The notes beneath the pieces are model-generated. The model saw only the letters and a program-made list of their open reading frames with translations, did no database searches and was not told where the DNA came from. A program made the translations under genes and the position numbers. This document shows positions 2,561 to 12,740 of a stretch of 17,335 nt of DNA, in pieces. The stretch lies in assembly GCA_002441865.1 (NCBI GenBank), contig DJNY01000004.1:10841-28175 (forward strand), in the 5' to 3' direction. The first letter of the stretch is position 1, and every line of letters starts with the position of its first letter. The DNA is from Lachnospiraceae bacterium UBA6452 (GTDB lineage: Bacteria > Bacillota > Clostridia > Lachnospirales > Lachnospiraceae).

Positions 2561-4399
2561 ATGTTATTTCAGGATTTTTACAAAGGACGGGCATTTGATG
2601 CGTATACATATTTTGGAGCTCATATCGAAGGAAAAGGCGTCTGGTTCCGCGTGTATGCACCGGCGGCAAAAGCAGTTTATGTGATCGGTGATTTTTCGGG
2701 CTGGAACAGGATTCGGATGGATCACGGGTATGATGGCGGTGTCTTTACTGCTTATGTAGAGGGTGCAAAGGCAGGACAGATGTATAAATACCTGGTGGAA
2801 GAACAAAGCGGAGTGGTGCGCGAACATTGTGATCCGTATGGCTTTGCAATGGAAAAACGCCCGGCATTTGCATCGATCATTACTGATCTGTACAAGTACC
2901 GGTTTGCGGACCGGGAATGGATGGCGAAACGGGATAAATCCTATGATAAGCCGATGAACATATATGAACTGCATCTGGCATCCTGGAAAAACAAAAAAGC
3001 CACCAGGGAGCGGAAAGAGGGGGAAGAAATGCATTTCCCGGCCTATGAGGAAATCGCGGAGGAGCTGATCCCTTACCTGAAAGAAAATCATTTTAATTAT
3101 ATTGAAATGTTACCGCTTGCGGAGCATCCGGCAGATTGTTCCTGGGGATATCAGGATACCGGATTTTATGCGCCAACAGCAAGATACGGCAGCCCGGACG
3201 GACTCAAAAAGCTGATCGACAGCTGCCATCAGAATGACATTGGCGTCATTCTTGATTTTGTGCCGATCCATTTCGCAATGGATGACTATGGATTACGGCG
3301 GTTTGACGGAACGGCACTTTATGAATATGACAATAAGGATGTCGGCGAGAGTGAGTGGGGCACATGCAATTTTAACCATTCCCGCGGAGAGGTGGCAAGC
3401 TTCTTACAATCCAATGCAAATTACTGGCTGCAGGAGTTTCATTTTGATGGAATCCGTATGGATGCGATCAGCCGTGCCATTTACTGGATGGGAGATCCGA
3501 AACGTGGCATAAATGACAGAAGTGTCGCATTCATAAAGGAGATGAATGCAGGGCTGCACAGCTTAAATCCTACCGCAATTCTCGTGGCAGAGGATTCCAC
3601 CAATTATCTGAAAGTAACAGCACCTGTGGAATATGACGGACTGGGTTTTGATTACAAATGGGACATGGGCTTTATGAATGATACACTGGATTATTTCCGC
3701 TTAGAACCGGTACACAGACCGGCAAATTATGATAAGCTTGCCTTTTCCATGCAGTATTTTTATAACGAATTATACCTGCTGCCGTTTTCACATGATGAGG
3801 TAGTCCACGGAAAGGCAACGATCGTCCAGAAAATGTGGGGCGATTATGAGCAGAAATTTCCACAGGCAAGAGCCTTATATGCCTATTTTTATACCCATCC
3901 GGGCAAAAAACTGAATTTCATGGGCAATGAGATCGGGCAGCTCCGGGAGTGGGATGAAAACCGCCAGCAGGACTGGGATATGCTGAAGTATCCGATGCAT
4001 GACAGTTTTTATCATTATTACAGAGAGCTTAGCCGGATCTATACCACCTATCCTGCTTTATATAATGGGGAATACAATCCGAACTGTTTCCGTTGGCTGC
4101 AGGTGCATGCAGCACAGTTTTCCACCTATGTATATGAAAGACGCGCCGAGGGACAGTCGGTTATCGTGATGTTAAACTTCTCAGATCAGTACTGGAGCAG
4201 CTTCTCATTTGGATATGACAGAAATGTCACACTGAAAGAGCTGATCAACAGTGACTGGGAAGCGTACAGTGGCAAAACAAAACATTCAGATATGAAGGTG
4301 CATGTACAGGCGCAGGTGTATGATGGAATGCCATACCGCATCAGCACAGATATTGCACCATTTTCTGCCAGAATATTTTTGGTGAAAAAGGACTTGTAA
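2561..4399 (+). CDS. glgB: 1,4-alpha-glucan branching enzyme (GH13)
   Basis: Cuts alpha-1,4 glucan chains and rejoins them as alpha-1,6 branches during glycogen synthesis in the cytoplasm. An N-terminal CBM48-like beta-sandwich (about 18-105, with VIGDFSGWN) precedes a GH13 barrel. Region I is DFVPIHF (232-238). The expected catalytic residues are nucleophile D301 in DGIRMDA, acid/base E344 in LVAEDS, and the third carboxylate D412 in SHDEVVHGK. The C-terminal all-beta domain runs from about 510 to the end. At 612 aa it is on the short side for GlgB but complete. GGAGA at 2550-2554 is 6 nt before the start. It follows the RACE-like gene by 27 nt with no terminator between, and no other glycogen gene is adjacent. 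Its stop codon overlaps the -35 box of the next promoter. Confidence 0.95.
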   Translation: MLFQDFYKGRAFDAYTYFGAHIEGKGVWFRVYAPAAKAVYVIGDFSGWNRIRMDHGYDGGVFTAYVEGAKAGQMYKYLVEEQSGVVREHCDPYGFAMEKRPAFASIITDLYKYRFADREWMAKRDKSYDKPMNIYELHLASWKNKKATRERKEGEEMHFPAYEEIAEELIPYLKENHFNYIEMLPLAEHPADCSWGYQDTGFYAPTARYGSPDGLKKLIDSCHQNDIGVILDFVPIHFAMDDYGLRRFDGTALYEYDNKDVGESEWGTCNFNHSRGEVASFLQSNANYWLQEFHFDGIRMDAISRAIYWMGDPKRGINDRSVAFIKEMNAGLHSLNPTAILVAEDSTNYLKVTAPVEYDGLGFDYKWDMGFMNDTLDYFRLEPVHRPANYDKLAFSMQYFYNELYLLPFSHDEVVHGKATIVQKMWGDYEQKFPQARALYAYFYTHPGKKLNFMGNEIGQLREWDENRQQDWDMLKYPMHDSFYHYYRELSRIYTTYPALYNGEYNPNCFRWLQVHAAQFSTYVYERRAEGQSVIVMLNFSDQYWSSFSFGYDRNVTLKELINSDWEAYSGKTKHSDMKVHVQAQVYDGMPYRISTDIAPFSARIFLVKKDL

Positions 4400-4421
4400 T
4401 TTTCGAACACATGTTTATAAT
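4394..4421 (+). promoter_or_regulatory. Sigma-A promoter of the SOS-type DNA repair unit
   Basis: -35 TTGTAA at 4394-4399 (overlapping the glgB stop codon), 16-bp spacer, perfect -10 TATAAT at 4416-4421. The predicted transcription start is near 4428. LexA box 1 fills the spacer and touches the -10, and LexA box 2 lies just downstream of the start, a layout suited to repression. Confidence 0.82.
4404..4417 (+). promoter_or_regulatory. LexA (SOS) operator box 1
   Basis: CGAACACATGTTTA matches 13 of 14 positions of the Gram-positive LexA/DinR consensus CGAACRNRYGTTYG; only the last base differs. It sits between the -35 and -10 elements. Among the CGAAC/GTTCG half-sites I noticed by eye in the window, only this one and box 2 have a recognisable partner half-site. 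Confidence 0.82.
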
Positions 4422-4433
4422 AAGAATATAACT

Positions 4434-4447
4434 CGAACAAACGTTCT
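4434..4447 (+). promoter_or_regulatory. LexA (SOS) operator box 2
   Basis: CGAACAAACGTTCT also matches 13 of 14 consensus positions, with the dyad GAAC-N4-GTTC intact. It begins exactly 30 bp after box 1, close to three helical turns, so two LexA dimers could bind on the same DNA face. It lies just downstream of the predicted start site and upstream of the AGGTGG ribosome binding site (4458-4463). Confidence 0.85.
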
Positions 4448-4470
4448 TTGTATAAACAGGTGGGAAGATT

Positions 4471-5880
4471 ATGATCGTTTTAGAAGATTTGGAAATTGAA
4501 AAGAAGCTGGAGATCTTATCCGATGCGGCAAAATACGACGTGGCTTGTACTTCAAGCGGCGTAGAGCGCAAGGGCAGACAGGACGACATGGGAAATGCGA
4601 CGCACTGTGGCATCTGCCACAGTTTTGCGGCTGATGGCAGGTGTATTTCTCTTTTGAAGGTTCTGATGACCAATGAATGCATCTATGACTGTAAATACTG
4701 CATCAACCGCCGCTCGAATGATACAGTCCGTACATCGTTTACGCCGCAGGAGCTCTGTGAGCTGACGATCCAGTTTTATCGGCGCAATTACATTGAGGGG
4801 CTCTTTCTGAGCTCCGGGATCAGACGTTCGCCGGATGAAACGATGGAGCAGATCTACCGGGTTCTTTTTTTGCTGCGCAGGCAGTATCATTTCAACGGAT
4901 ATATCCATGTGAAAGGAATCCCGGGTGCATCTGCAGAGCTTGTGCAGGCAGTCGGGTATCTGGCAGACCGCATGAGTCTGAATCTGGAGCTTCCGACTGC
5001 ACAGGGGCTGCAAAAGCTGGCACCGGGCAAGACGCGGGAAAAGATCCTGACGCCGATGCGCCAGATCCAGAATGGTATTCGGGAGCAGAAGCTTTTGCTG
5101 ACGGATGGTGGCCGGATAGCAAAGAAGCAGGAGAATGGAAGCAGCCTGTATCTGCCCGGGAATGGGCAGCTTTTACGCGAAAGGAGCAGCTATGGTGTCA
5201 GTGAGATTCGTGGAAAGCAGGCGCAGTTTGTACCGGCGGGACAGAGCACCCAGATGATCGTAGGGGCAACGCAGGAGAACGATTATCAGCTCCTCACGAT
5301 CGCAGAGTCCTTATACCGGAAGTTTGAACTGAAGCGTGTCTTTTACTCTGCCTATGTGGCACTGAATGAAGACAGAGATCTGCCGCAGGTAGGGACAAAG
5401 CCGCCGCTGCTCCGTGAGCACCGTCTGTATCAGGCAGATTTTTTACTGCGCTTTTATGGGTTCGAGGCAAAGGAACTCCTGTCAGAGGAAAAACCGAACT
5501 TTAATGTGTACCTCGATCCGAAGTGTGACTGGGCGATCCGGCATCTGGAATATTTCCCGGTTGAGATCAACCGCGCAGGCTATGAATTGCTGCTCCGTGT
5601 TCCGGGGATCGGTGTCAAGTCCGCCCAGCGGATCATACGGGCGCGCAGATCTGCAAAGCTGGATTTTGACCAGTTAAAACGGATCGGTGTGGTACTGAAG
5701 CGGGCGCATTACTTTATCACTTGTAACGGGAAAATGCTTTATCATACAAAGATCGAAGAAGATTACATCACCAGAAGGATCTTAGAGCTCGATCATGCCA
5801 AAAACTGGCAGATGGAGTATCAGATGACTTATCAGCAGCTTTCACTTTTTGATGACCGGAAGGAGGGGATGACAGGATGA
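4471..5880 (+). CDS. Putative DNA modification/repair radical SAM protein (TIGR03916-like)
   Basis: Predicted radical SAM enzyme acting on DNA; the reaction is unknown. The cluster motif is C70-X3-C74-X2-C77 (NECIYDCKYC), preceded by another cysteine group at C46, C49 and C58 (CGICH...C) that could hold a second metal or cluster. Residues about 369-392 form a helix-hairpin-helix motif (LLLRVPGIGVKSAQRIIRAR), typical of non-sequence-specific DNA binding, followed by the family-typical RAHYFITCNGKM. The C-terminal tail carries QLSLF (456-460), the canonical beta-clamp-binding pentapeptide. AGGTGG at 4458-4463 is 7 nt before ATG 4471. The stop overlaps the next start by 4 nt (ATGA), so the two proteins are probably made together. 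Two LexA boxes in the promoter predict DNA-damage induction. The closest chemical precedent among radical SAM enzymes is spore photoproduct lyase, but this is a different family. Confidence 0.92.
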   Translation: MIVLEDLEIEKKLEILSDAAKYDVACTSSGVERKGRQDDMGNATHCGICHSFAADGRCISLLKVLMTNECIYDCKYCINRRSNDTVRTSFTPQELCELTIQFYRRNYIEGLFLSSGIRRSPDETMEQIYRVLFLLRRQYHFNGYIHVKGIPGASAELVQAVGYLADRMSLNLELPTAQGLQKLAPGKTREKILTPMRQIQNGIREQKLLLTDGGRIAKKQENGSSLYLPGNGQLLRERSSYGVSEIRGKQAQFVPAGQSTQMIVGATQENDYQLLTIAESLYRKFELKRVFYSAYVALNEDRDLPQVGTKPPLLREHRLYQADFLLRFYGFEAKELLSEEKPNFNVYLDPKCDWAIRHLEYFPVEINRAGYELLLRVPGIGVKSAQRIIRARRSAKLDFDQLKRIGVVLKRAHYFITCNGKMLYHTKIEEDYITRRILELDHAKNWQMEYQMTYQQLSLFDDRKEGMTG

Positions 5881-6686
5881 TCACTTATCTTTGTGAGGAT
5901 ACACCGGAAGGCATTTTTACGGCGGTCTATGATGCCTGGGCAGCAAGGATTCCGGATGACCGGCTTCATCTGATGACGGAGCAGGAGATGAATTTCAGCC
6001 TGTTTACGGAATACCGGCAGGTAGAGACGGATCAGGAAAAAGCAGTCAGGGTGGCACGTTCTATCCGGCAGAAGATCGCAGATGAGGCATATGTGCAGGT
6101 ATATTACGCATCCCTGTCGGACGAAGAGGACAAGGTGGATGCCATCTATCACTTTTTAAAACAGGGCTTCCGGTATGGTGCCCGTGTTCTGGATATGCAT
6201 GGGCTTGCACAGGTGTGCAGGGTATATGAGCTGTACCGGGCGGTGAGCAATGAAAATCAGAAATACAGAGGCTTTGTAAGGTTTGCGGAGATCGGCAGAC
6301 AGGGGCAGAAGATACTGCTTGCCAGGATCCGACCGAAGAATCAGCTTCTTCCGCTTTTAGGACAGCATTTTGCAGACCGGTTTGGACAGGAAAATTTTGC
6401 CATTATAGATGATGAAAGGGCAATGGGCTATTTTCACGGGGAGACGGCTTTTCTGTCCAAGGTGGATATCGCGCAGATAGACAGACTGTGGCGGGAAAAG
6501 CGTGACACGGCATATGAAGAGTTGTTTCGGACATTCTTTCACAGCATTGCCATCAAAGAACGGGAAAACTATGTCTGTCAGCGGACGATGTGTCCGATCC
6601 GTTACCGCGATTATATGGTGGAATTTTCAAAGACAGGCACAGATCAGACGGCACTGCATAAGATACAGGAAGAACACAGAGCGTAG
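5877..6686 (+). CDS. TIGR03915/DUF4130-like partner of the radical SAM DNA repair protein
   Basis: Probable DNA metabolism protein of unknown activity. The N-terminus (YLCEDTPEGIFTAVYDAW), the segment ENQKYRGFVRFAEI near 126-139, LLARIRPKNQLLPLLGQHFADRF near 147-169 and the C-terminal IAIKERENYVCQRTMCPIRYRDYMVEF region match my recollection of TIGR03915 (DUF4130). That family is genetically linked to radical SAM TIGR03916 and in other bacteria is fused to a UdgX-type uracil-DNA-binding domain. At 269 aa it is full length. C234 and C239 lie in the conserved C-terminal block. It starts inside the stop codon of the radical SAM gene (ATGA overlap), which implies translational coupling and stoichiometric production. 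It shares that gene's LexA-controlled promoter, and the deacetylase gene starts 11 nt downstream. No glycosylase domain is seen in this protein. Confidence 0.9.
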   Translation: MITYLCEDTPEGIFTAVYDAWAARIPDDRLHLMTEQEMNFSLFTEYRQVETDQEKAVRVARSIRQKIADEAYVQVYYASLSDEEDKVDAIYHFLKQGFRYGARVLDMHGLAQVCRVYELYRAVSNENQKYRGFVRFAEIGRQGQKILLARIRPKNQLLPLLGQHFADRFGQENFAIIDDERAMGYFHGETAFLSKVDIAQIDRLWREKRDTAYEELFRTFFHSIAIKERENYVCQRTMCPIRYRDYMVEFSKTGTDQTALHKIQEEHRA

Positions 6687-6697
6687 AGAAGCCTGAC

Positions 6698-7378
6698 ATG
6701 GGAAAAAGCGGAAAACGGAAATTATTTCTGGGAGCGGGCGTTCTGGCAGTGTATGTACTTGCCAGTCTGCTTGCGTTTTGGCGTATGCCTGAAAGAACCG
6801 TCGCATGGTCGGAAGATACGGTACCAAAGCGCATAGCGCTCACCTTTGATGACGGTCCTTATCCGAATCTGACGAGACAGCTTTTGGACGGACTGCGCGA
6901 GCGTGGCGTAAAAGCCAGCTTTTTTGTGGTGGGCGAAAATGCGAAAGCTTATCCGGATGTCATAGAAACGATGTATGAGGATGGTCATCTGATCGGGAAT
7001 CATACATACCATCATGTACAGCTGACGGAGGCTGGAGAGGAGAAGTTCAAAGAAGAGATCCTTATGACAAATGAGGTGCTTTATGAGATTACCGGAGAAA
7101 CACCGACCTTTATCAGACCACCGTATGGCAGCTGGAATAAAAAGTACGAGGAAGAATTAAATCTCTTTCCTGTTTTATGGACAGTGGATCCGCTTGACTG
7201 GTGCTGCAACAGCAGCCAGTGTGTTTATCAAAGAGTAGTGACGACTGTGAAGGAAAATGATATTATATTGTTGCATGATTGCTATGAGACTTCTGTGACC
7301 GCGGCGCTTTCCATTGTAGACAGCCTGCAGGCGCAGGGCTACGAGTTTGTCACAGTAGACGAACTGCTGCTGGAGTAG
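6698..7378 (+). CDS. Membrane-anchored polysaccharide deacetylase (CE4/NodB domain)
   Basis: Predicted metal-dependent deacetylase of N-acetylated polysaccharide, probably cell-wall peptidoglycan or a surface glycan, acting outside the membrane. A basic N-terminus (MGKSGKRK) and one hydrophobic segment (about 9-27) form a signal anchor. The CE4 motifs are all present: TFDDGP (49-54, catalytic D51 and metal D52), HTYHH (metal H102 and H106), RPPYG (140-144), VDPLDW (163-168) and ILLHD (190-194, H193). At 226 aa it is essentially a NodB domain plus an anchor. The ribosome binding site upstream of ATG 6698 is weak (AGAGAAG at 6685-6691), so it may depend on coupling to the preceding gene 11 nt away. 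Its place inside a predicted SOS unit is unexpected. The exact substrate cannot be read from the sequence. Confidence 0.92.
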   Translation: MGKSGKRKLFLGAGVLAVYVLASLLAFWRMPERTVAWSEDTVPKRIALTFDDGPYPNLTRQLLDGLRERGVKASFFVVGENAKAYPDVIETMYEDGHLIGNHTYHHVQLTEAGEEKFKEEILMTNEVLYEITGETPTFIRPPYGSWNKKYEEELNLFPVLWTVDPLDWCCNSSQCVYQRVVTTVKENDIILLHDCYETSVTAALSIVDSLQAQGYEFVTVDELLLE

Positions 7379-7408
7379 GCAGCAGAGCATGCAGAGAGAA
7401 GGAATAGA

Positions 7409-8731
7409 ATGGATTTATTTGAATACATGAGACAAAATACAATGGAAAAGGAATCTCCGCTGGCGGCGCGTATGCGGCCGACAACACTGTCGGAAATCGT
7501 GGGACAGCGACATATCCTGGGAGAGGACAAGCTGCTGTATCGTGCGATCAAGGCTGACAAGCTCAGTTCTCTGATCTTTTACGGCCCTCCGGGGACAGGA
7601 AAAACGACGATCGCCAAAGTGATTGCCAATACGACGAGCGCAGAATTTACACAGATCAATGCGACTGTGGCGGGTAAAAAGGATATGGAGGACGTCGTCG
7701 CAAAAGCAAAGGATACGATGGGGATGTATCAGAAAAAGACAATCCTCTTTATTGATGAGATCCATCGTTTTAACAAAGGACAGCAGGACTATCTGCTTCC
7801 GTTTGTAGAGGACGGAACGATCATTCTGATCGGCGCAACAACAGAAAATCCATACTTTGAGGTAAACGGCGCTTTGTTGTCACGTTCCATCATTTTTGAA
7901 CTGAAGCCTTTGGAGCAGGAGGATATCAAGGATCTGATCAGGCGTGCGTTGACAGACGAGAAAAAGGGGCTTGGCAGTTATCAGGCAGAGATTGATGCGG
8001 ATGCACTGGAATTTCTGGCAGATATGGCAGGCGGCGATGCAAGGCATGCACTGAATGCAATCGAGATCGGTGTTCTGACCACGCAGCGCAGCGAGGACGG
8101 AAAAATCCACATTACATTGCCGGTTGCTTCCGAATGTATCCAGAAGCGCGTTGTAAAGTATGACAAAACAGGAGACAATCATTACGATACAGTATCCGCA
8201 TTTATCAAGAGCATGCGCGGTTCAGATCCGGACGCGGCAGTTTATTATCTGGCAAAGATGCTGTATGCGGGAGAGAGTGTTACGTTTATATCGCGCCGCA
8301 TGATGATCTGTGCGGCGGAAGATGTTGGGATGGCAGATCCGAATGCTATTCAGGTCGCAACCAGTGCGGCACTTGCGGTAGAACGTGTCGGAATGCCTGA
8401 AGCGCAGATCATTTTATCGGAAGCGGTGATCTATATTGCAACTGCGCCCAAGAGTAACAGTGCCAACAATGCGATTGTTGCTGCGATGGACTGTGTCAGA
8501 AAGACCGGAAATCTGAAAGTGCCGACGCACCTGCAGGATTCTCATTATAAGGGTGCTGTAAAGCTGGGGCATGGTCTGGGCTATCAATATGCGCATGATT
8601 TTGATAAACACTATGTAAAGCAGCAGTATCTGCCGGACGAACTGACAGATTCTGTTTTTTATGAACCGTCAACAATGGGCTATGAAAGTAAAGTACAGGA
8701 GCATATGAAATGGTTAAAAGAAGAAAAATAG
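7409..8731 (+). CDS. rarA: Replication-associated recombination protein RarA/MgsA (AAA+ ATPase)
   Basis: AAA+ ATPase of the RarA/MgsA/WRNIP1 family that acts at stalled or gapped replication forks and is related to clamp-loader subunits. Visible motifs are the family-typical PLAARMRPTTLSEIVGQ (17-33), Walker A GPPGTGKTT (59-67), Walker B ILFIDEIHRF (112-121), sensor 1 GATTENP (142-148) and arginine finger SRS (R160). The C-terminal tetramerisation region includes YLAKMLYAGE and the conserved HLQDSHYKGAVKLGHGLGYQY. At 440 aa it is full length. GAAGGA (7398-7403) is 5 nt before ATG 7409. It lies 30 nt after the deacetylase with no terminator and overlaps the next gene by 22 nt. It probably shares the LexA-controlled transcript, which fits its role in replication-fork rescue. 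Confidence 0.96.
   Translation: MDLFEYMRQNTMEKESPLAARMRPTTLSEIVGQRHILGEDKLLYRAIKADKLSSLIFYGPPGTGKTTIAKVIANTTSAEFTQINATVAGKKDMEDVVAKAKDTMGMYQKKTILFIDEIHRFNKGQQDYLLPFVEDGTIILIGATTENPYFEVNGALLSRSIIFELKPLEQEDIKDLIRRALTDEKKGLGSYQAEIDADALEFLADMAGGDARHALNAIEIGVLTTQRSEDGKIHITLPVASECIQKRVVKYDKTGDNHYDTVSAFIKSMRGSDPDAAVYYLAKMLYAGESVTFISRRMMICAAEDVGMADPNAIQVATSAALAVERVGMPEAQIILSEAVIYIATAPKSNSANNAIVAAMDCVRKTGNLKVPTHLQDSHYKGAVKLGHGLGYQYAHDFDKHYVKQQYLPDELTDSVFYEPSTMGYESKVQEHMKWLKEEK
8697..8701 (+). promoter_or_regulatory. Ribosome binding site deciding the phosphodiesterase start
   Basis: AGGAG lies inside the end of rarA, 8 nt before ATG 8710. The later in-frame ATG at 8740 has no comparable site, which favours the upstream start and a 22-nt overlap with rarA. 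Confidence 0.75.
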
Positions 8732-10026
8732 ACCAGCGGATGGTTGTTATTTCGCTGGATGCAGTCGGAGCAAGAGATCTTGCTTATTTAAAAACATTAC
8801 CAAATTTCCAAAAACTGCGTGCACAGAGCGGTTATTGTGATCATGTGGAAAGTGTGTATCCGTCTATTACCTATCCGGCGCATACATCGATCGTGACAGG
8901 AAAAAAACCGCTGCATCACGGTGTTATCAATAATCTGCAGCTGCAGCCCGGCAGAAAGAGTCCGGACTGGATGTGGCAGAAGCATTTTATCCATGGAAAG
9001 ACTTTATATGAAGCGGCGGCGGAAAAGGGATATGTCACAGCGTCTGTTTTATGGCCTGTGACAGGAAAAAGCGGGATCCGATACTGCGTTCCGGAGATTT
9101 TTGCCAATCACTGGTGGCAGAATCAGGTCACAGTATCGGCTGCAAACGGTCCACTGCTGTACCAGATCGAGCTGCTAAAGAAGTTCGGACATCTGATCGA
9201 TGGGATCAAACAGCCGCAGCTTGATAACTTTGCTTATGCGGCGGCAGATTATACGATCCGCAAGTATGATCCGCAGCTGTTTCTGATCCATCTGACGGAT
9301 GTGGATACAAACAGGCACCTGTACGGACTGGATGCACCGCAGATCAAAGAAGCACTGGAACGTCATGATGAAAGACTGGGTGGCATCTGCAGGGCACTTG
9401 CCGAAACGGGAGATATGGAGAAAACGACGATCGTTGTGCTCGGAGATCATTGTCAGATCGATACCCATACAGTGCTGTATCCGAATTATTACCTGAAAAA
9501 AGCAGGGCTGATCCGGGCTGCGGCGGACGGAAAGATAAAAGATTATGATTTTATTGCGCAGCATTGCGATGGCAGCTGTTATATTTATGCCGGAAAGAAG
9601 CTGAAAAAGCAAATGACAGATATGTCGGAAGAAGAAAAGAAAGCCGTAATGAAGCGTTTGAGAGGCTGCCTGCAGCAGATTCCGCACCTGCATGAGATCT
9701 TTTCGAGAAAACATGCGGCCGCTCTTGGGGCAGATGGTGACTGTATCTGTATGCTGGAAGCTGAGCCAGGATATTATTTCCAGAATGGCATGGAAAAACC
9801 ACAGGAAGAAGTCAGCCAGATGCAGGGGGAAAGAATGCTGGCAACTCATGGGTATCTGCCAACATTGCCGGAATATGAAACCTTCTTTATGATGAGTGGA
9901 TATGGTGTCAGACAGGGAGAAATCCCTGAGATGTATTTATGGGACGAAGGCCCGACACTTGCGTCGGTTTTGGGCGTATCCCTGCCGGATGCAGATGGCA
10001 AAATAATAGAGCAGCTTTTAAAATAG
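8710..10026 (+). CDS. Alkaline-phosphatase-superfamily nucleotide pyrophosphatase/phosphodiesterase (NPP-like)
   Basis: Predicted two-metal phosphodiesterase or pyrophosphatase of the type I phosphodiesterase/NPP group. Sequence order matches the family: D17 in VISLDAVG (metal 1), T54 in YPSITYPAHTSIVTG (nucleophile), D199 and H203 in DVDTNRH (metal 2, DxxxH), D246 and H247 in LGDHCQID (metal 1), and H380 in ATHGYLP (metal 2). There is no signal peptide or membrane segment, so it is probably cytoplasmic, unlike many secreted relatives. The start at 8710 overlaps rarA by 22 nt and has AGGAG 8 nt upstream. It ends in a hairpin that also contains the stop codon of the converging DUF4364 gene. 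The substrate is unknown; a nucleotide or sugar-nucleotide phosphodiester is an inference. Confidence 0.88.
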   Translation: MVKRRKIDQRMVVISLDAVGARDLAYLKTLPNFQKLRAQSGYCDHVESVYPSITYPAHTSIVTGKKPLHHGVINNLQLQPGRKSPDWMWQKHFIHGKTLYEAAAEKGYVTASVLWPVTGKSGIRYCVPEIFANHWWQNQVTVSAANGPLLYQIELLKKFGHLIDGIKQPQLDNFAYAAADYTIRKYDPQLFLIHLTDVDTNRHLYGLDAPQIKEALERHDERLGGICRALAETGDMEKTTIVVLGDHCQIDTHTVLYPNYYLKKAGLIRAAADGKIKDYDFIAQHCDGSCYIYAGKKLKKQMTDMSEEEKKAVMKRLRGCLQQIPHLHEIFSRKHAAALGADGDCICMLEAEPGYYFQNGMEKPQEEVSQMQGERMLATHGYLPTLPEYETFFMMSGYGVRQGEIPEMYLWDEGPTLASVLGVSLPDADGKIIEQLLK

Positions 10027-10035
10027 CTGCTCTAT
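10006..10035. terminator. Shared hairpin between convergent genes (terminator, better on the minus strand)
   Basis: A perfect 11-bp inverted repeat, ATAGAGCAGCT at 10006-10016 and AGCTGCTCTAT at 10025-10035, has an 8-nt AT-rich loop. On the minus strand it is followed by TATTATTTTG, a modest T tract, so it can terminate the malic enzyme-DUF4364 unit. On the plus strand it is followed by CAGAAACTG with no T tract, so termination there is less certain. The TAG of the phosphodiesterase (10024-10026) and the TAA of the DUF4364 gene (10018-10020, minus) both lie within it. Confidence 0.75.
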
Positions 10036-10533
10036 CAGAAACTGATATACATCCTGGCTTTTGCGTTCCCATTTTTCACAGATCGACTGCGCAATCGCTT
10101 CTGTCGGAACGGAAATAGTCAGATCAAGCAGTGTCACATGTTTTTCTCTGGCGATCAGATGGGCTTTGTATTCTCCATCCGTACCTTTGAAAAACTCACT
10201 GCTTAAGGATGCTTCTTCTTTTAAGGAAATAGATTTCTCCCGCAGATAAGTTTCGATATCTTTTTTGATCTCCGGGGAGATCCTGTTTTCGAAAAATCCC
10301 AGTGTTGTTTTTCCTTCCTCTGTGATCAGAAGCTGTGTCCGGTTCCGGATTGTGCGTTCCGCGATCATATTGCTGTCTCTCAGCTGCGCCAGAACGGATT
10401 GCAGATTCATATAAGTCGTATATTCTTTTTCTAATATAAAGTCAGTGATCTGTGCTTTTGTCAGCGGAAAATCTACGCGGTTCAGCATATAAAGCACGAT
10501 CAGTTTATAAAGTGTCAACGGATCCTGTGTCAT
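10018..10533 (-). CDS. DUF4364 family protein (winged-helix-like)
   Basis: Function unknown. The N-terminus (LTLYKLIVLYMLNRVDFPLTKAQITDFILEKEYTTY) matches DUF4364, a family I recall from Clostridia. Residues about 1-85 look like a winged helix-turn-helix, with the helical TKAQITDFI segment, a NLQSVLAQLRDSNMI recognition-like helix and an RNRTQLLITEEGKTTL wing, resembling PadR/MarR-type regulators. The C-terminal half (about 100-171) is an alpha/beta domain with no motif I know. The start ATG (10531-10533) has AAAGGAAG upstream on the minus strand. It overlaps the end of the YhcC-like gene by 29 nt and the end of the convergent phosphodiesterase by 9 nt. DNA binding is an inference from the fold pattern only. 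Confidence 0.88.
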   Translation of the reverse strand: MTQDPLTLYKLIVLYMLNRVDFPLTKAQITDFILEKEYTTYMNLQSVLAQLRDSNMIAERTIRNRTQLLITEEGKTTLGFFENRISPEIKKDIETYLREKSISLKEEASLSSEFFKGTDGEYKAHLIAREKHVTLLDLTISVPTEAIAQSICEKWERKSQDVYQFLIEQLF

Positions 10534-11473
10534 GGATACTCTTCCTTTCTATATAATCCCTTCCCTGATAATGTCCGCCTGCCTTTAGTGCCTTGTGCAG
10601 ACTGTTTAAAACATTGCGCTTCTGCAGACTCCAGGTTGGTGCGATCAGCAGATCCTTCGGCCCGTCGCCGGTAACTCTGTGCAGAATGATTGCAGGGTTT
10701 AAATGATCGATGCAGCTGCAGAGCAGGTCAATATAAGCCTCCTTTGAGAGACAGGAAAAAGCCCCCTGTTCATATTCTGCCGCCAGATCCGTACCATGCA
10801 GAACATGCAAAAGCTGCAATTTGATGCCAAAGATATTTTTCTGACTTAAGTAGTCGATCGTAGCGAGCATATCAGCCTGTGTTTCTCCCGGAAGTCCCAG
10901 GATGACATGGACGATCACCGGGACGGATAATACCTGCAGTGCTGTAAGCGCTTCTTCAAAACAGGAGAGCGGATAGCCACGGCGTATATAAAGAGCTGTT
11001 TTTTCATGCATGGATTGCAGTCCCAGCTCAATCCAGATGAATTTATCAGGAAATTCCATCTGGCATTGCTTTATCACATCGAGAACAGGTATGGGCAGAC
11101 AATCCGGTCTTGTGGCAATGGAAATTCCAACGATATTCGGATGGGAGAGCGCCATGTGATACAGGGTATACAGCCGCTCAGGCTCGGCATATGTACCGGT
11201 ATAGGCCTGAAAATAGGCAATAAAACGCTGCCCGGTCTGTTTGTCGCCAAAACGGGCAAGTGCCTGCCTGATCTGCGCATCGATGGAACTGTTCTGACGA
11301 ATAGCAGTGGCGAATTCACCACTGCCGCCGGCAGAGCAGAAGATGCAGCCGCGTGTGCCACATATTCCGTCTCTGTTGGGGCAGGTAAATCCGCCATCCA
11401 GTGCAATCTTATATATTTTCTCGCCATATTTCTTTTTTAAATAGGCATTCAGGCTCCGGTACGGCTTATACAT
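10505..11473 (-). CDS. YhcC-like (TIGR01212 family) radical SAM protein
   Basis: Radical SAM protein of the YhcC/TIGR01212 family, related to the Elp3 branch; its substrate is not established. The family signature ALDGGFTCPNRDG with the wide cysteine spacing is present: C31, then C43 and C46 (CIFC), with C38 in between. Other matching blocks are ISIATRPDCLP (118-128), IWIELGLQSMHEKT (147-159), VHVILGLPGET (188-198) and the C-terminal HRVTGDGPKDLLIAPTW (265-281). The reading frame is open 53 codons further upstream, but that would run into the malic enzyme gene. ATG 11473 begins MYKPYRSLNAYLKKKYG, where the family starts, and has GGGAAGAGG just upstream, giving 322 aa. It follows malic enzyme after 31 nt and overlaps the DUF4364 gene by 29 nt. 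Confidence 0.92.
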   Translation of the reverse strand: MYKPYRSLNAYLKKKYGEKIYKIALDGGFTCPNRDGICGTRGCIFCSAGGSGEFATAIRQNSSIDAQIRQALARFGDKQTGQRFIAYFQAYTGTYAEPERLYTLYHMALSHPNIVGISIATRPDCLPIPVLDVIKQCQMEFPDKFIWIELGLQSMHEKTALYIRRGYPLSCFEEALTALQVLSVPVIVHVILGLPGETQADMLATIDYLSQKNIFGIKLQLLHVLHGTDLAAEYEQGAFSCLSKEAYIDLLCSCIDHLNPAIILHRVTGDGPKDLLIAPTWSLQKRNVLNSLHKALKAGGHYQGRDYIERKSIHDTGSVDTL

Positions 11474-11504
11474 TGCCTCTTCCCGAAGCTGGTTTTCTAT
11501 TGGA

Positions 11505-12653
11505 TCAGATATGGGATTTGACAGCATTTGCAACAACCTCTGCAACGCGCGGATCAAAAGCTTCCGGCATGATATTGTCATCGCTGAGCTCATCATCTGA
11601 AACAAGAGAAGCAATGGCAAGCGCAGCGGCAAGCTTCATATCCTCTGTGATCTGGGTAGCGCGGCCTTCCAGTGCGCCTTTGAAGATACCCGGGAATGCA
11701 ACGACGTTATTGACCTGATTCGGAAAATCGGATCTGCCTGTACCAACGACTCTGGCACCTGCGGCTTTTGCAACATCAGGCATGATCTCCGGAACCGGAT
11801 TTGCCATGGCAAATAAGATGGCATCATGATTCATGGATTTTACCATTTCAGGCGTTACGATGTTCGGAGCGGAAACACCGACAAAAATATCTGCACCCTT
11901 TAAGGCATCGGCAAGGGAGCCTGTCTCATTATTCGGGTTGGTTACTTCTGTCATTTTCTGCTGCATCCAGTTCAGATTTTCGGAATCCTTTGAAATGATA
12001 CCTGCTTTGTCGCACATGATCACATTTTTAAAACCATAGGTAAGGAGAAGCTTGGTGATCGCAATACCGGCGCTTCCCGCACCGTTGATAACAACTTTAC
12101 AATCTTCTTTTTTCTTATTTACAACCTTTAAGGCATTGATGATACCTGCAAGTACAACGATAGCTGTACCGTGCTGGTCATCGTGGAAAACGGGAATGTT
12201 TAAGGTCTGTTTCAGGCGTTCCTCGATCTCAAAACATCTTGGTGCACTGATATCCTCTAAATTGATACCGCCGTAGTTTGGAGCAAGGTAGGTGATTGTT
12301 TTGATCAGTTCTTCCGTATCCTGTGTATCCAGACAGATCGGAACGGCATTGACATTGCCAAATTCCTTGAACAGAACGCATTTTCCTTCCATGACAGGCA
12401 TGGCGGCAAGCGGACCGATATTACCAAGACCGAGAACTGCACTGCCATCTGAGATAACAGCTACCGTATTTGCTTTCATCGTATATTTATAGGCGGCTTC
12501 CGGATCCTCTGCGATCACCTTACACGGCTCTGCAACACCCGGGGTATAGGCAAGCGCAAGGTCTTCTCTTGATTTGACAGATGCCTTTGCAGTGGTTTCC
12601 AGTTTACCGTTCCATTGTTCGTGAAGCTTTAACGCCAGCTCTTTTGATGCCAT
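11505..12653 (-). CDS. NAD(P)-dependent malic enzyme (short form)
   Basis: Oxidatively decarboxylates malate to pyruvate, linking C4 acids to pyruvate and supplying NAD(P)H. Family residues are visible: YTPGVAEPC with Y36, the SDGSAVLGLGNIGP nucleotide-site segment (68-81), K91 in MEGK, metal ligands E133/D134 in LEDI, HDDQHGTA (157-164), the Rossmann glycine motif GAGSAG (191-196) and FAMANPVPEI (281-290). At 382 aa it is the short bacterial form without the C-terminal phosphotransacetylase-like domain. The frame extends 29 codons further upstream, but ATG 12653 is preceded by GAGG 8 nt away and gives the normal N-terminus MASKELALKLHEQW. It is the first gene of the leftward unit and has a candidate promoter upstream. 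Cofactor preference cannot be decided by eye. Confidence 0.96.
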   Translation of the reverse strand: MASKELALKLHEQWNGKLETTAKASVKSREDLALAYTPGVAEPCKVIAEDPEAAYKYTMKANTVAVISDGSAVLGLGNIGPLAAMPVMEGKCVLFKEFGNVNAVPICLDTQDTEELIKTITYLAPNYGGINLEDISAPRCFEIEERLKQTLNIPVFHDDQHGTAIVVLAGIINALKVVNKKKEDCKVVINGAGSAGIAITKLLLTYGFKNVIMCDKAGIISKDSENLNWMQQKMTEVTNPNNETGSLADALKGADIFVGVSAPNIVTPEMVKSMNHDAILFAMANPVPEIMPDVAKAAGARVVGTGRSDFPNQVNNVVAFPGIFKGALEGRATQITEDMKLAAALAIASLVSDDELSDDNIMPEAFDPRVAEVVANAVKSHI

Positions 12654-12711
12654 TTTATTTTCCTCTTTCTTTACTGTAATATAATATTTGATTGATTCGC
12701 GATTACCTATA

Positions 12712-12740
12712 ATGATATAACATCTTTTTGAGGTCTGCAA
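12712..12740 (-). promoter_or_regulatory. Candidate sigma-A promoter of malic enzyme unit
   Basis: On the minus strand, TTGCAG (12740-12735), a 17-bp spacer, then TATCAT (12717-12712, five of six matches to TATAAT). The predicted start is near 12705, leaving a leader of about 50 nt. The -35 is weak outside TTG. Confidence 0.5.

Follow-up and report, generated by a model that had tools for sequence, protein, structure and literature searches.

LexA-type operator boxes precede a radical SAM and DUF4130 gene pair in Lachnospiraceae bacterium UBA6452 and most of the Clostridia loci compared

The window analysed here is a stretch of 17,335 nucleotides from Lachnospiraceae bacterium UBA6452 (contig DJNY01000004.1). 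It contains a gene for a radical SAM protein of the TIGR03916 family, which is followed by a gene for a TIGR03915 (DUF4130) partner and preceded by a promoter with two boxes that resemble operators of the SOS repressor LexA. LexA control of the genes from position 4471 onward is very likely, judged from sequence comparisons. The elements at the head of this putative operon are given below; matrix scores refer to the weight matrix described further on.

4394-4421, plus strand: promoter, TTGTAA at 4394-4399, a 16-base spacer and TATAAT at 4416-4421 (from the sequence and a promoter-like scan)
4404-4417, plus strand: LexA box 1, CGAACACATGTTTA, 13/14 to the Gram-positive operator, matrix score 13.1
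4434-4447, plus strand: LexA box 2, CGAACAAACGTTCT, 13/14, matrix score 17.7, the top score of the window
4458-4463, plus strand: probable ribosome-binding site, AGGTGG (from reading the sequence)
4471-5880, plus strand: TIGR03916 radical SAM protein, NCBIfam 683.1 bits, cut-off 343.5
5877-6686, plus strand: TIGR03915/DUF4130 partner, NCBIfam 234.5 bits, cut-off 112.25; PF13566, 156 bits

Both boxes match the Gram-positive LexA operator CGAACRNRYGTTYG at 13 of 14 positions, and their starts are 30 bp apart. Box 1 lies inside the promoter spacer and reaches into the -10 element by two bases. The gap between the -10 element and box 2 is 12 bases, so box 2 would start just downstream of the expected transcription start (about 4428). 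The promoter ranks first (10/12) among the 14 promoter-like sites listed for 4300-10700, and it overlaps the 3' end of glgB (2561-4399, stop codon 4397-4399). Dinucleotide shuffling of 4391-4470, repeated 20,000 times, never gave two separate boxes of at least 13/14. A first-pass annotation of this DNA had described the same two boxes and the same promoter, with box 1 touching the -10 element and box 2 past the predicted start, and its coordinates and match counts are confirmed here. It had also singled out the spacing of exactly 30 bp. This spacing is rejected as a signal, as it is neither conserved nor special: it is seen once among 78 close relatives, in the nearest of them (L001), and the commonest spacings there are 24 and 57-58 bp.

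The LexA motif was derived from the lexA and recA promoters of relatives, not from the window's own genome. A lexA gene scores over the profile cut-off in 17 of 19 relatives' genomes, a recA gene in 19 of 20. Each of the 17 lexA and 19 recA genes is preceded by one or more boxes of 12/14 or better. The lexA upstream regions usually hold several boxes; in Lachnospiraceae relatives (L081-L097) as many as six LexA-type boxes form an array before lexA. In 6 of the 19 recA upstream regions two boxes are 28-32 bp apart, and in Kineothrix sp. MSJ-39, the nearest relative, the distance is 29 bp. The weight matrix was built from 84 lexA/recA promoter sites and includes no sites from the operon. It recognises 14 of 17 lexA promoters outside the training set and 2 of 25 recJ upstream regions, the latter serving as a control. 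Applied to the window, it ranks box 2 (17.7) first and box 1 (13.1) second; the third-best score is 9.8 at 12373, inside the open reading frame 11505-12740. The recA and lexA promoters of Lachnospiraceae relatives share the operator with the promoter described here, often in pairs or arrays, but they drive SOS regulators, whereas the promoter in the window drives a predicted pair of repair enzymes.

Kineothrix sp. MSJ-39 (locus L001, genome G001) is 89.7% identical to the window in DNA over 9.4 kb, and its radical SAM protein is 94% identical. Its genome carries lexA over the cut-off. A box that aligns with box 2 is present in each of the four nearest relatives (L001-L004). Matches to the operator pattern in the Kineothrix genome precede lexA, recA, the operon and uvrB (L140, recognised by family search), and one lies at the start of an open reading frame for a pcrA/uvrD-type helicase (L154). 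Many of the matches fall within open reading frames, and others lie before or in genes without an obvious connection to SOS.

Conservation was assessed in two sets of loci. The close set consists of the 80 loci nearest to the window's radical SAM gene, with 200 bp or more of upstream sequence for 78 of them. A box of at least 12/14 is present within 250 bp upstream in 74 of these 78, and two separate boxes are present in 45. The corresponding rates for a single box are 2.5% of 20,000 windows taken from other parts of these loci and 3.5% of 3,900 shuffles, and two boxes occur in 0.01% of the 20,000 windows.

The class set was drawn from 391 Clostridia genomes, 147 of which have TIGR03916 over the cut-off. 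It comprises 143 loci: 140 over-cut-off places in 139 of the 147 genomes and three loci under the cut-off (L297-L299). The 8 genomes left out were chosen before the box search. A site was called at a matrix score of at least 10 within -300 to +30 of the start, where starts were projected from the alignment rather than annotated. A weight-matrix scan upstream of TIGR03916-TIGR03915 loci across Clostridia had been named in the first-pass annotation as a check, and a lack of sites before orthologues as one outcome that would refute LexA control; sites are present before 131 of the 143, a count that includes some redundancy (L159 and L001 are one locus, and the protein cores of L175 and L176 are identical). 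The same call is made in 60 of 2257 control windows and in 21 of 715 base-shuffled upstream regions; the enrichment before orthologues is about 30-fold relative to the control windows. The radical SAM proteins of the class set are mostly 46-63% identical to that of the window. When the loci are aligned on the box, the flanks are little conserved except for the promoter. Common descent alone is thus insufficient to explain the boxes. Together with the lexA, recA and recJ results, these counts give good support to the LexA control that the first-pass annotation had proposed for the TIGR03916-TIGR03915 pair.

The position of the boxes on the promoter differs between lineages. In 58 of the 131 class loci with a site the start of the best box is exactly 34 bp away from a TATAAT-like -10 element downstream; TATAAT is matched equally well at 60 of 2620 random positions. 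A TG stands one base ahead of the -10 element in 55 of these 58 loci. In this layout the box ends at the expected -35 element, and 35 of the 58 have at most two mismatches to TTGACA there. The layout of the window is different, with one box in the spacer and the other past the start, and the 34-bp layout occurs in only 3 of the 78 loci close to it. The two layouts, taken with the retention of boxes, suggest that control has been kept while the operator position has shifted.

The presence of the box is associated with the presence of lexA. In a comparison that was conceived after the list of box-less genomes had been seen, and for which the box-bearing genomes were hand-picked, lexA is over its cut-off in 34 of 36 genomes with a box before TIGR03916 and in 7 of 14 without (Fisher P = 9e-4). 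In the first genome set alone the counts are 19 of 19 with a box and 5 of 12 without (P = 3e-4); many of the genomes compared are metagenome bins, in which an absent lexA may be absent sequence. The sites thus tend to disappear where lexA is absent. This bears on the idea that the boxes are targets of some other repressor which recognises a similar palindrome, such as a LexA-like protein of a prophage or mobile element, and that the operon responds to a different signal. LexA-like paralogues under the cut-off do exist in several genomes, but the lexA and recA promoters of the genomes examined conform to the same matrix, and the sites tend to vanish together with lexA. We regard this alternative as very improbable.

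Several observations weigh against LexA control. With up to two mismatches the operator pattern has 6 matches in the whole window where 3.5 are expected, and 34 of 200 shuffles reach 6. In the genome of the nearest relative the one-mismatch pattern has 19 matches, against 44 for a reversed control. Box 1 is weak (13.1), and its counterpart in the nearest relative is weaker (12.2). This counterpart, a 12/14 match, occurs only in L001 and is absent at that place in L002-L004. No site is present in the set window at 12 of 143 class loci and 4 of 78 close loci. Two genomes with a box (G002 and G003) have no lexA over the cut-off, and at least two genomes with lexA have no site before the gene (G024, with 216 bp of upstream sequence, and G017, locus L069, searched to -700).

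Some of the loci without a site in the set window can be described further. Among the close loci that lack a matrix site in the 250 bp, L018 has sites at -388 and -364 and L031 has one at -257; no site was found upstream in L015 (338 bp searched) or in L069. Within the 12 class loci that lack a box, three (L269, L284 and L285) have a weaker AAAAC-N4-GTTTA site before the gene, and the lexA promoters of the same genomes (L375, L377 and L378) have none or few strong standard boxes. These two features make a drift of the LexA motif in these three genomes possible.

The near-chance count at two mismatches means that the loose pattern alone is weak, and the weight rests on paired boxes at one promoter and on their conservation. 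It could be argued from the loose pattern, which is near chance across both the window and a genome, and from the 12 orthologues without a site, that the boxes are chance matches or relics with no regulatory role and that the operon is constitutive. The roughly 30-fold enrichment before orthologues and the fixed promoter placement in 58 of 131 loci speak against this, and we consider it the least probable of the explanations, slightly below a different repressor.

We therefore hold with high confidence the explanation that both boxes are LexA operators which would hold the operon from 4471 low until DNA is damaged. LexA dimers would cover the core promoter, with box 1 in the spacer and -10 element, and the start region, with box 2. 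On DNA damage, RecA filaments would stimulate self-cleavage of LexA, the operators would be vacated and the operon would be transcribed. Its core products would be a radical SAM enzyme, carrying a helix-hairpin-helix tail for DNA binding, and the DUF4130 partner. Most likely, the pair repairs a damaged DNA base, or helps to remove it, through radical chemistry.

In the radical SAM protein the cluster-binding cysteines of the CX3CX2C motif (C70, C74 and C77) are invariant in 64 of 64 aligned proteins, and an HHH_3 domain is present at residues 364-394. The AlphaFold2 model of the 4471-5880 product has a radical-SAM fold; a sequence search of solved structures gave only a weak ComEA/RuvA helix-hairpin-helix match for this protein and nothing for DUF4130. 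The last 4 bases of the radical SAM gene are shared with the DUF4130 gene. The two genes are neighbours in 77 of the 80 close relatives; contig ends interrupt the remaining 3. Their order is inverted in L039. In the class set the partner is found by tblastn in 122 of 143 loci; the remainder are not all cut by contig ends. The 191 closed partner open reading frames are about 220-319 amino acids long and include no long fusion.

The three loci under the cut-off, L297-L299, encode distant radical SAM/helix-hairpin-helix relatives which score about 319-325 bits to TIGR03916, and no DUF4130 neighbour was detected for them. A strong LexA-type site lies close to the start in two of the three: L299 (box 2887-2900, open reading frame 1514-2866 on the minus strand) and L298, where it lies inside the called open reading frame. 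This sister family may therefore also be SOS-controlled. The window holds a second radical SAM gene, of the tRNA modification family TIGR01212 (MnmL/YtqA), at 10505-11632 on the minus strand; no link between it and the SOS boxes was seen.

Three further genes follow the pair in the window.

6698-7378, plus strand: polysaccharide deacetylase (PF01522), 11 bases past the pair
7409-8731, plus strand: RarA/MgsA-type AAA+ ATPase (PF12002, MgsA_C), after a 30-base gap
8710-10026, plus strand: type I phosphodiesterase/nucleotide pyrophosphatase family protein (PF01663), overlapping rarA by 22 bases

The deacetylase gene is probably co-transcribed with the pair, and rarA is possibly read from the LexA-controlled promoter in the lineage of the window, in which case the transcript would extend well past 6686. 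The gaps of just 11 and 30 bases, the 22-base overlap and the fact that none of the 8 terminator-like hairpins listed falls in a plus-strand gap of the gene run all favour a long transcript. Against this, LexA may govern only the two-gene core, with rarA and its flanking genes read mainly from promoters of their own. The deacetylase, rarA and phosphodiesterase genes lie behind the pair in only 4 of the 80 loci (L001-L004, where the order is kept), and there is a weak promoter-like site at 7238-7266, upstream of rarA. This narrower extent of control is a serious contender, to which we give a little under even weight.

A bolder model can be put forward, although we think it rather unlikely. Across the Clostridia, the TIGR03916-TIGR03915 pair would be a core SOS repair machine of anaerobes that is free of uracil-DNA glycosylase (UDG). 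In it, the radical SAM enzyme would reverse or open the lesion directly on DNA, and DUF4130, a RecJ/Cdc45-like (DHH-fold) subunit without catalytic activity, would hold the damaged strand; the SOS transcript would have captured rarA in the lineage of the window. The DHH triad and a GGGH-type motif are absent from the DUF4130 columns conserved in more than 60% of 109 sequences. A profile comparison of DUF4130 with RecJ gave no link, and a control comparison with the radical SAM alignment was equally negative. If the model is true, fork repair through rarA is tied to the same SOS switch in this lineage.

We take COG4277 to correspond to the TIGR03916 family. SOS control of this kind of operon has already been predicted or reported for two systems, so the kind of system is not new, and the view of the first-pass annotation that SOS control of the pair had not been described does not hold. 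CAC3343-CAC3344 of Clostridium acetobutylicum was predicted as a LexA regulon member in 2013, with expression clusters that match the prediction (PMC3828012). That pair is from another species and is equated with TIGR03916/TIGR03915 by name only, and the account, as far as it was available, mentions neither a double box nor a class-wide survey, unlike the present one (PMC3828012). An SOS-controlled UDG-COG4277 operon (COG1573-COG4277) is reported in Bacteroidetes, and the same source cites it also in Verrucomicrobia and Alphaproteobacteria (PMC8565304). As is predicted for the operon in the window, it places a radical SAM/helix-hairpin-helix gene under damage regulation; it differs in that it includes a UDG and other operator motifs (PMC8565304). 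The partner in the window is UDG-free: no UDG family is among the NCBIfam results for the operon, and TIGR03914 was found in 0 of 20 relatives' genomes searched. DUF4130 has been associated with radical SAM and UDG genes (PMC3765255), and the part of the Clostridium difficile LexA regulon table that was available does not list this pair (PMC4234289).

Spore photoproduct lyase (SplB), a radical SAM enzyme, repairs DNA and is under SOS regulation in several species (PMC8565304). It has the radical SAM class in common with the protein in the window, as well as the DNA repair and the SOS link that are predicted for the latter, but it belongs to a different NCBIfam family, and the protein in the window matches only TIGR03916. 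SplB structures are absent among the 50 structural matches listed for the radical SAM model, although the two may still be related. In the open-licence PMC literature we did not find the class-wide conservation, the two promoter layouts, the absence of a UDG partner or the lineage-specific rarA extension.

The above results tie a little-studied radical SAM pair to LexA as regularly as classical SOS genes are tied to it, in most of the Clostridia loci examined, and describe an SOS control that is conserved with differing operator placement between lineages. Many of these loci come from gut anaerobes. This makes it likely enough that the pair serves a dedicated anaerobic repair of DNA lesions to rank it as a strong candidate, and the link to LexA points to the conditions that are likely to switch it on.
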